IMG/VR virus record: IMGVR_UViG_3300025418_000694
Coordinates: 31,818-95,817 of that record
Reading direction: 5' to 3' (one strand)
Length of the DNA: 64,000 bases
Source of the DNA: a virus
Shown: in pieces, positions 52,377-55,953 of the stretch
Layout: every line of letters starts with the position of its first letter
Numbering within the stretch: the stretch's first letter is position 1
Translations under genes and position numbers: made by a program
Notes under the pieces: model-generated
Database searches by the model: none
Told to the model about the DNA's origin: nothing
What the model saw: only the letters and a program-made list of their open reading frames with translations

Positions 52377-54335
52377 TTATTTCTTTCCTATCGTTTGAGT
52401 AGGATTTTGTAAAATCTTTTTAACTTCTGAGGCAACTTTATTTGGGTCTGTTATTCCGTTTACATTGATAGTAAACCCACCATAATTAATGTTTCCACCG
52501 CCACCAGCTCCTCCTCCAAAAGCAGCAGCTTGAGCAGCAGCAAATCTTGATGCAGCGGTTGGGTCGCCCGATTGAGCCACGCTATTTATTGACGCCACTC
52601 CTCCGCCCATAGAAGAGCCACCAGCGTCAATTATTCCAAGTTTTCTAGCGGTATTAGTCCAAGCGTTGCTCCACGTAGTTCCGCCATGAGAAATATCATA
52701 AGCAATTTTTGCATTAATTGCTGGATTGTAAAGGCTTTGAGGACCAGTATAACCAATAGAAGCATAGTCTTTTAAATACTGTGCATTTCTTTTTCTACCT
52801 AAATCACCAATCATATTAATTTGAAAAAGACCTTCAGAGTAATCTCCAGTACTAGAATTTGGGTTAAGCGCGCCTGGTCTTCCACCAGATTCCATACGTG
52901 CTACATTAAATGCTGTATCTAAAGAGGCGCCTTTAAAACCAGCTGCTTTAAGAACATTCTTTAATTGACTATCTGTTAATGCTGTTTTAGGTCCAGCCGC
53001 TCCATATGAGGATACTCCACCACCACTTTCTTTAAACATATTGTTAGGTATAACTGTTCCGTCAGTCTTAGGGATAAATAGCTCTGGGCCTTTTTCACCA
53101 ACAACGTACGGCATATTTCCTTGGGCAGGGCCGCCAGTTTCTAAAGCAAGTCCTAGTAAAGGTAAAAGCTTTAGTAGCATTTCTGGTGCATCTTTAAATA
53201 AACTTTTAACAGCAAATCCAATTCCAACTTTTCCTAAGCTGCCCATTGCGCCTCCACCAAGGCCTAAAACTCCAGTTCCTAATCCTTTTCCTCCACCAAG
53301 CACTGCAGTTAAATTGCTCATAGAGGCTGCAAGATTGTTCATACCTGTTCCTATATCAGCAGCACCAGCATAGCCTCCAGCAGTAGCAGAGGCGGTTGCT
53401 GTAAGTAAACTTGTTTGAGCAGCTGTTTGACTAGCCATATTACGCACAGTTGCGGATTGAATTCCAGCATTGACCATTTGTTCTCTGCTAATTGTTCCTA
53501 CTGCTTGTCCATTAAAAGTTGCTTTTACAAGAAGAGCATCTGAAACCATTTTAATCATTGTTGGGTCGCCATTAAAAAGACCACTTAGCATGTTGTATAC
53601 GCCGTAACCTGGTTGCATAGAATATTGAAGAGACTTTTTATCCATGCCACGTCCACCGCTATTTTGGCTAATAAACGCCCAAATTTTATCTACTAGTTGT
53701 GGGAAAGGCATCATGCTTCCATCAGCACCGCGAATGTTAATTCCAATTGTTCTGGCAAGGTTTACGGTTGTAGGAGCGTTCATTGTTCCAGCAATTGCCG
53801 TTGCTGCCCCAGTAATACCAATACCAGGAGTTATATTAGAGGCTTGAGCTGCCCCAGCCATAACTTTATTAAAGTTGCTTACGCCTCCAAGGCCAGCATT
53901 TTGAGCGGCAATAATTGCATTTGTTGTGTCCATGCTATTAAGAGCTGTTCCGCCATAGGCTAAACTCTTTTGTAAAGAACGAACTCCGCCAGCACCATTT
54001 GCTCCACCAAGCCCATAAAATGATGCACGCTGTGTTAATAGGTCTTGCATAACAGCGGTGGGCACACTAGGCATAGCGCCAAAGGCAGCGCTTGCAGCAG
54101 ACACTCCCATAGCTATTCTATTAGCGTTTCCTCCACCAGGACCTGACATTACTTGGTTAACGCCACCTCCACCGCCACCCATCCCCATACCTTTAAAGGC
54201 TGATGAAAGGGCTTGGACTTTAGGTAGGAGTGTGTTTTCAATGGTTGAAGCTAATTGCAAAATATCTTTGTTAATACTAGTAACAGTATTTGATATTCCG
54301 CCAATGCCCATAGCGGTTTTACTATCGTCAGCCAT
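52377..54335 (-). CDS. tape measure protein with lysozyme-like domain
   Basis: This 652-aa protein has a helical N-terminus (INKDILQLASTIENTLLPKVQALSSAFKG), hydrophobic Ala/Gly-rich central helices and a transglycosylase-like domain at about 440-560. There ARMESGGRPG carries the catalytic Glu, followed by EGLFQINMIGD and YNPAINAKIAYDI. Its place after the chaperone genes is the tape measure position. The short length would imply a short tail for a myovirus. The lysozyme domain would open peptidoglycan during infection. Confidence 0.85.
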   Translation of the reverse strand: MADDSKTAMGIGGISNTVTSINKDILQLASTIENTLLPKVQALSSAFKGMGMGGGGGGVNQVMSGPGGGNANRIAMGVSAASAAFGAMPSVPTAVMQDLLTQRASFYGLGGANGAGGVRSLQKSLAYGGTALNSMDTTNAIIAAQNAGLGGVSNFNKVMAGAAQASNITPGIGITGAATAIAGTMNAPTTVNLARTIGINIRGADGSMMPFPQLVDKIWAFISQNSGGRGMDKKSLQYSMQPGYGVYNMLSGLFNGDPTMIKMVSDALLVKATFNGQAVGTISREQMVNAGIQSATVRNMASQTAAQTSLLTATASATAGGYAGAADIGTGMNNLAASMSNLTAVLGGGKGLGTGVLGLGGGAMGSLGKVGIGFAVKSLFKDAPEMLLKLLPLLGLALETGGPAQGNMPYVVGEKGPELFIPKTDGTVIPNNMFKESGGGVSSYGAAGPKTALTDSQLKNVLKAAGFKGASLDTAFNVARMESGGRPGALNPNSSTGDYSEGLFQINMIGDLGRKRNAQYLKDYASIGYTGPQSLYNPAINAKIAYDISHGGTTWSNAWTNTARKLGIIDAGGSSMGGGVASINSVAQSGDPTAASRFAAAQAAAFGGGAGGGGNINYGGFTINVNGITDPNKVASEVKKILQNPTQTIGKK

Positions 54336-54337
54336 TT

Positions 54338-54532
54338 TTACCTCCTACCTCGCATAGCGCGCTCAATCCAGTTAATTCTTTCTCTAGCAGATAAACTTCT
54401 TATATCTGCTAGTGTCCAACCAGTAAAAGTTCTTGTTATAGATTCGTACTGGTCAAGCAATTTTTCATAATCTGCTTCGCTATAGGCGAAACAAATCGAC
54501 AAGACTAAGTGGGAGAGCGATAGCTTCACCAC
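54338..54532 (-). CDS. tail assembly chaperone, second frame
   Basis: This frame overlaps the end of the chaperone gene and lies +1 (equivalently -2) relative to it. It encodes FAYSEADYEKLLDQYESITRTFTGWTLADIRSLSARERINWIERA, a segment I recall as the continuation of related chaperones. No Shine-Dalgarno precedes the GTG at 54532, so it is probably made as a frameshift extension of the upstream product rather than separately. Confidence 0.65.
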   Translation of the reverse strand: MVKLSLSHLVLSICFAYSEADYEKLLDQYESITRTFTGWTLADIRSLSARERINWIERAMRGRR

Positions 54533-55271
54533 ATGCCTTGCAGGTCTTCTTCACCTCCCCAAGGCGTGGGCCTGGGTTACGGTCAAGAATAGATTCAATA
54601 ATCTTTGTGCGGTCAGACATGCTTAGATTTAATACTGTGCTTGCTCCCATAGAAGGCACATCATTTACTGATAAAACACATCCAGATAGAAGTAAAGTAT
54701 TAATTTCTGCAGAAGTTTTTTCTGCATTTTCTAATAGTTTCTTTTGAGTAAGACCTGTAGGAAGGGTTACTGTTACGTAACCTTTCTTTGTCTCTACTCT
54801 CCAAGTTCTATCTGCTGCAGGGTCATTGAGAGTCTTAGTTGGCACATCAACCTCAAGGTCAATAGAAACGTCTTGAGACTCTGCACAATTACCGCAAACA
54901 ATAGATAAGTCAAGAGTGTCTCCAAAAGTAATACGGCGCACACCTATTAAGATAGCGTCGCGATCACCAGATAGGAGCTTGTCTAAATCCTCAATGGTTG
55001 CATCCCTTGAGCCAATCTTGACAAGACCTCTTTGCAAAAGAACGTTAAGGGCTTTACCAGTAGTTGACGCTTTGGCAATAGCCTCTTCATCAATACCAGT
55101 TAGCTCTCGAACTTCTGCTGTCTTAATGACTTCACCATTTTCTATAAAGCCGCCAGGTAATCTGACTTCTGGCCCTAGAGGAGCCTTGGTCTCAATTACT
55201 TGAGCGGGCTCCTCCATTGCCTGTTGCGCAAACTTATTTACTAAGTCTGCATCTGTAATAACTTGTGTCAC
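54480..55271 (-). CDS. tail assembly/baseplate chaperone (T4 gp26-like)
   Basis: This 263-aa protein resembles the T4 gp26-type hub chaperone family: VRLPGGFI, LTGIDEEAIAKAS, LLQRGLVKIGS and DAILIGVRRITFGDTLDL. Two Cys pairs (CGNC, CKACG) make a zinc ribbon. It precedes the tape measure gene, the standard place for tail chaperones. The stop is followed in another frame by a 64-codon extension. Confidence 0.75.
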   Translation of the reverse strand: MTQVITDADLVNKFAQQAMEEPAQVIETKAPLGPEVRLPGGFIENGEVIKTAEVRELTGIDEEAIAKASTTGKALNVLLQRGLVKIGSRDATIEDLDKLLSGDRDAILIGVRRITFGDTLDLSIVCGNCAESQDVSIDLEVDVPTKTLNDPAADRTWRVETKKGYVTVTLPTGLTQKKLLENAEKTSAEINTLLLSGCVLSVNDVPSMGASTVLNLSMSDRTKIIESILDRNPGPRLGEVKKTCKACGEAIALPLSLVDLFRL

Positions 55272-55296: not shown

Positions 55297-55953
55297 TTAG
55301 AGTGTTGCTAGAGGTGTATCTGGGTCTGCTGGGCTTCCGTCTGCCTTGGTGTAGTAAACAGATAGTCCTTCGTGAACCAATTGCATTGTTTCAAAAAGGA
55401 TTGCTCCATTTGTTGCATCCAAGTCGGTATAGTTTAGCCCAGTAATCCACGCATTGTGAATTTTAAAAGCCATTTTGGCTCTATCAGCTGTTGCATTTGT
55501 ATTTGGGTGGTCATTGACTGTCAATGTGATATCTACACGGAAGTTTCCTGGTGTAGATGAGCCATTAAGGCCAGAACCCTGAGCAGCTGAAAACATACCG
55601 CGCATCCACGCGATTGCTTGGTCATTTCCATATAGAACACCACGTGAGAATGTCACTGGTGAGAATGTGGTCATGCCAGGAATCTGGTGAACGGTGGTGT
55701 TGTATCCGCCTTCACGGTACTGGATAGCCTGTGTGTTGATAGACAACCCACTGACGTTTGTAAATCCTCCGACCCAGCCAGTTGAAACTCCACTTGTAGG
55801 TGGTGTTACTGTTCCAGCAGCGTCTTGGATGCGCTTATCAAATGGAGCAGTAGCATCTCCAGCTGATTGCTTAAAGCTAGCAGTAAACCTAAACCCGCGA
55901 AGTGGGTCAGTTGCTAGACTTGAGTTATAGGTAGCTAGTGTTGAACTTGCCAT
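55297..55953 (-). CDS. tail tube protein
   Basis: This 218-aa protein has DPLRGFRFTASF, GLSINTQAIQYREGGYNTTVHQIPGMTTFSPVTFSRGV and DITLTVND, the T4 gp19-like tube pattern. It follows the sheath gene directly. It forms the inner tube of the contractile tail. Confidence 0.92.
   Translation of the reverse strand: MASSTLATYNSSLATDPLRGFRFTASFKQSAGDATAPFDKRIQDAAGTVTPPTSGVSTGWVGGFTNVSGLSINTQAIQYREGGYNTTVHQIPGMTTFSPVTFSRGVLYGNDQAIAWMRGMFSAAQGSGLNGSSTPGNFRVDITLTVNDHPNTNATADRAKMAFKIHNAWITGLNYTDLDATNGAILFETMQLVHEGLSVYYTKADGSPADPDTPLATL

Follow-up and report, generated by a model that had tools for sequence, protein, structure and literature searches.

The window analysed here is a stretch of 64,000 nucleotides within a 95.8-kb virus record (IMG/VR record IMGVR_UViG_3300025418_000694), and its minus strand carries, in this order, genes for the sheath and the tail tube, two ORFs that we call G and T, and the tape measure and baseplate genes (Table 1). 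G matches the Pfam family PF12322 (E=1.6e-8; 34.9 bits, above the curated cut-off of 24.5) as well as PHROG 150 (E=7.9e-10) and, judged by sequence, is a tail assembly chaperone, because it occupies the position between the tail tube and tape measure genes and because the tail chaperones of T4-like phages have reportedly been identified by Vladimirov et al. in 2022 (cited in PMC12846349). The chaperone meant there we take to be T4 gp26, in line with the match of G to the gp26 family (PF12322). A search with G found no relatives in bacterial and archaeal genomes. The presence of two ORFs between the tail tube and tape measure genes is also one of the features by which chaperone pairs of the G/GT type are recognized. 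The lysozyme-like domain (SLT_3) of the tape measure protein lies at its residues 461-560.

Table 1. Features of the tail chaperone locus, in coordinates of the window.
Feature	Position	Strand	Remarks
Sheath	57483-55969	-	
Tail tube protein, T4 gp19-like	55297..55953	-	PF06841, E=3.2e-23
G, short form of the tail assembly chaperone (263 aa), T4 gp26-like	54480..55271	-	PF12322, PHROG 150
Conserved nucleotide block AACCCAGGCCCACGCCTTGGGGAGGTGA in G, candidate upstream stimulator	54551..54578	-	
Candidate RNA structure	54502..54573	-	from -91 to -20 relative to the G stop; ends 10 nt before UUU
Putative E-site codon UUG	54492..54494	-	57/57 in the clade
Putative slip codon UUU (P site, +1 to UUC)	54489..54491	-	TTT in 57/57
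Zero-frame A-site codon CGC	54486..54488	-	C 54488 would be skipped in the shift
T, 49-codon +1-frame extension of G	54341..54487	-	open in 57/57 relatives
Zero-frame stop of G, TAG	54480..54482	-	some relatives have TAA or TGA
AGGAGG Shine-Dalgarno of the tape measure gene	54341..54346	-	within the last codons of T
Tape measure protein	52377..54335	-	ATG at 54335; internal lysozyme-like domain (SLT_3)
Predicted junction peptide of the +1 G-T fusion			ACGEAIALPLSLVDLFAYSEADYEK
Predicted junction without extra Phe (contrast to the -2 product)			DLFAYSEADYEK

A 64-codon ORF (54532-54338) overlaps the end of G in the +1 frame, as an earlier, sequence-only reading of this DNA had described, and this frame extends from the TGA of GAGGTGA to 54338; its coding part, T, begins at 54487 and not at the GTG at 54532. 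The same reading had called the segment a continuation common in relatives. In a set of 57 non-redundant relatives (<95% identity over 300 nt) drawn from 124 loci, T is open in the +1 frame without exception. Past the G stop the +1 frame is without stops for 99 nt in 57/57 relatives, and the same 99 nt contain a stop in the zero frame in 57/57 and in the third frame in 55/57. Variation in the T frame is distributed over the three codon phases as 0.31/0.16/0.54, the normal pattern of coding sequence, which indicates that T is under protein-coding selection. The predicted G-T fusion is 310 aa long (261 + 49), with SLVDLF of G joined to AYSEADYEK of T, and residues W285, L287, R296-E297-R298 and W301 are kept across the aligned fusions. 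In one row of an alignment (L013 in alignment A4) the junction region was misread, an earlier in-frame TTTC having been taken as the shift word. The resemblance of T to the GpE family of phage P2 (PF06528) is weak (15.4 bits, below the cut-off of 23; E 0.013). Pairs of the G/GT type are further recognized by a second ORF that overlaps the first in another frame, lacks a start of its own and is conserved in relatives, and T is such an ORF.

The conserved site, and the probable point of entry into T, is TTG TTT CG, at 54494-54487. TTGTTTC is invariant in the relatives (57/57), always equally far from the G stop, and is mostly followed by GY, the codon after TTT being CGT or CGC in 52/57, CAA in 3/57 and CGA in 2/57. 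The overlap thereby contains the conserved slippery site (TTGTTTC, 57/57) that is a third mark of G/GT-type pairs, and the site has the form of the UUU_CGN class, with UUU_C at the P site and CGN as the A-site codon (54/57; CAA in 3/57). Since a T-frame stop lies at most 20 nt from the G stop in 23/57 relatives, the shift is confined to a few codons. Moreover, variation follows the zero frame up to position -13 relative to the G stop and the T frame from -3 onward, so that the switch of frame falls within the invariant heptamer. When each P-site codon was checked for +1 and -2 re-pairing options in the relatives, UUU to UUC at -9 was the sole option present in all of them (57/57), and in 36/57 it was the only option at all. 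Given this comparison, the gene pair very probably encodes two forms of the tail assembly chaperone by means of a +1 frameshift at UUU-C. It is the conservation of the +1 frame, the position of the shift and the uniqueness of the UUU-to-UUC re-pairing that comparison of the relatives establishes, and from the re-pairing we infer the +1 direction.

The sequence-only reading had allowed for a programmed shift of either +1 or -2; the former is strongly supported by the above and the latter is disfavored. A -2 slip would arrive in the same frame as a +1 slip, and CUC-on-CUC re-pairing would be possible in the window at -33, but no -2 re-pairing is common to the relatives and none whatever is available in 36/57 of them, which makes this direction very unlikely. 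If it took place at UUU, the codon would land on UGU and the product would read ...DLFFAYSE.

It is also very improbable that T is a separate protein, translated by coupled initiation from the GTG at 54532 or from another start codon. The GTG does exist in the window, and two distant contigs (L186 and L187) have a T ORF with its own ATG just past the G stop; these are the only loci where we found two separate genes, an arrangement that the earlier reading had named as evidence against a frameshift and that is absent from the clade of the window. However, no Shine-Dalgarno is found at a usable distance from the GTG, in agreement with that reading, a T-frame stop lies downstream of the GTG position in 35/57 relatives, and three relatives (L019, L059 and L062) are without any ATG, GTG or TTG in the T frame, so that an independent start is impossible in many members of the group.

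The position of the shift is where our analysis departs from the earlier proposal of CTT-AGT as the slippery sequence. This sequence is present in the zero frame at 54509-54504, where the window has an open T frame, but +1 slippage at CUU-AGU is refuted as the mechanism of the clade and retains almost no probability: CTT is kept in 28/57 relatives and AGT in 18/57, a stop closes the T frame between this sequence and the end of G in 23/57, variation is still of the zero-frame type at -25 to -13, and a shift from CUU to UUA would be a poor re-pairing. The site favored here, UUU-C, lies 18 nt downstream. Stop-driven +1 slippage of the prfB kind, at the NUA that immediately precedes the stop, would be in keeping with a stop two codons past UUU in this clade; yet NUA moved to UAU would be unable to re-pair and its N is variable, the stop itself can be TAG, TAA or TGA, and the Streptomyces phages discussed below have the stop one codon further off, all of which leaves this idea with a negligible chance. 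Finally, that T is an untranslated leftover, or a frame error of sequencing or assembly, is exceedingly unlikely, given that the same frame relation recurs in more than 100 contigs and that the codon-phase variation (0.31/0.16/0.54) is typical of a translated frame.

It is important to note that the evidence for UUU-C is the conservation and position of the site and not the motif itself. In-frame TTT-CGN is not rare in the window (6 observed vs. 9.7 expected in 13,088 codons), and its other occurrences there are without apparent shifting. TTG represents 10-14% of the Leu codons in these genes and yet occupies the E site in 57/57 relatives, an invariance for which the protein does not account. 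The codon usage of the phage does not support pausing at a rare codon in the A site; CGC and CGT, at 13.4 and 14.2 per 1000 codons, are not rare, so slow decoding in the A site is not explained by codon rarity. Transcriptional slippage was also rejected, the homopolymer at the site being no longer than three T. The locus offers a short, testable site for asking what would make a common codon pair slippery.

A candidate for what may stimulate the shift lies 60-90 nt upstream, where a conserved nucleotide block comprises G codons 232-240 (AAC CCA GGC CCA CGC CTT GGG GAG GTG) and is the run of the gene with the highest synonymous conservation, up to 4.9 times expectation (CGC 57/57, GTG 57/57). 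The block (54551-54578) contains a perfect anti-Shine-Dalgarno match, GGGGAGGTGA, which is invariant in nearly all close relatives and is not suitably spaced from any start codon. One caution is that the Streptomyces phages lack the block. The consensus RNA structure has 96.7% of its pair cells formed, vs. 27-49% when it is slid, and includes one clearly covarying pair, with both sides changed in 17 sequences. Further, the folding energies of the last 84 nt of G are below those of synonymously randomized sequence (mean z of -2.97, with 19/19 sequences tested below 0), a value to be read with the caution that in relatives an unrelated stretch close to the start of G (codons about 12-40; about 55240-55150, minus strand) also folds far more stably than such randomized sequence (mean z of -3.89). 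Similar caution applies to the exact pairing, since a rival hairpin, CCCAGGC/GCCUUGGG, fits nearly equally (94.2%). A 12-bp hairpin of the window that contains the slip site was discarded, as some relatives, L011 and L052 among them, lack it. Tentatively, block and structure together might act as a 5' stimulator and promote +1 slippage at a UUU-CGY that is otherwise ordinary, either through refolding once the ribosome has passed or through binding of the 16S anti-Shine-Dalgarno via GGGGAGGUGA, although we consider this doubtful; if true, such an architecture would be unusual among bacterial-type +1 sites.

Under the +1 model at UUU-C, the majority of ribosomes would read G through to its stop. 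In a minority, tRNA-Phe (anticodon GAA) would occupy UUU (54491-54489) in the P site with CGC still undecoded and would slide one base forward, from UUU to UUC, after which reading would continue with GCC UAU AGC... and yield the 310-aa G-T fusion. By analogy with phage lambda, coating of the tape measure protein would fall to G, and recruitment of tail tube subunits to the T part. The occurrence of the shift, its rate and these roles of G and T are what we infer from the comparisons made here.

The pairing of G with T extends beyond the clade of the window. Matches to G with 38-40% identity occur in Streptomyces phages LuckySocke, Alone3, GiJojo, pSt2308 and BRock, and in a set of 12 non-redundant loci of this type (LuckySocke, GiJojo, pSt2308 and BRock plus IMG/VR relatives) T lies in the +1 frame and the site reads CTG or CTA, TTT, and then CGC, CGT, CGG, CGA or CAG. 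The public records of the four named phages of this set (L072-L075) give T as a separate ORF starting inside T or omit it, and the fusion product is missing from the annotations (e.g., LuckySocke gp90/91 and BRock gp136/135). Among the 7 non-redundant loci of a lineage related more distantly (L172-L185), UUU-UGG, not UUU-CGN, is the only shared +1 option. In the distant relative L071 (4700-4740), T lies in the -1 frame, at A-AAU-UUU (A-AAT-TTT), and the same pair is apparently made there by the opposite shift. Together with the separate ORF of L186 and L187, these loci indicate that one chaperone family obtains the same extension by a +1 shift, by a -1 shift and, it appears, as a separate gene. 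Among the loci compared, G and T thus stay paired while the way of making the pair changes.

A frameshifted chaperone pair is itself well known in phages, and it is the forward (+1) skip and its site that are unusual here. In T4, where we assign gp26 and gp51 as the tail chaperones, the likeness is that G belongs to the gp26 family (PF12322); the difference is that T4-like phages are said, going by the title of the 2022 work of Vladimirov et al., to use a mechanism other than frameshifting, as opposed to the +1 shift proposed for the clade of the window. The lambda-type G/GT frameshift is -1 (Xu et al. 2004, described in PMC5009743), whereas here the shift would be +1 on UUU-C and G is T4 gp26-like. 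The view of the sequence-only reading that most tail chaperone shifts are -1 is sound, but TTT-CGC +1 was already proposed for the tail chaperone of the HF1 group of haloarchaeal myoviruses, based on six genomes (PMC7230728). In addition, the tail chaperone of HSTV-2 involves a +1 shift, and in bacteria UUU_Ynn is said to undergo +1 frameshifting with particular ease (PMC5009743). In HF2 we confirmed AAG TTT CGC AGA TAG with a +1 continuation. The HF1 group resembles the clade of the window in having a tail chaperone pair, a +1 shift and TTT CGC shortly ahead of the G stop, and differs in its archaeal host and in the breadth of the comparison (six genomes vs. 57 non-redundant relatives plus two further lineages here); the UUU-C motif common to both may be convergent, because G of HF2 showed no match to PF12322. 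The closest proven case is PA-X of influenza A, where +1 frameshifting at UCC_UUU_CGU was demonstrated by mass spectrometry (PMC3498833), with the same slip of a P-site UUU to UUC and a CGN codon in the A site, but on a eukaryotic ribosome, with UCC rather than UUG in the E site, and in a different gene. Accordingly, UUU-C +1 frameshifting, proven in influenza and proposed in haloviruses, can now be placed, as a prediction, in the tail chaperones of Streptomyces phages and of a large clade of environmental phages.
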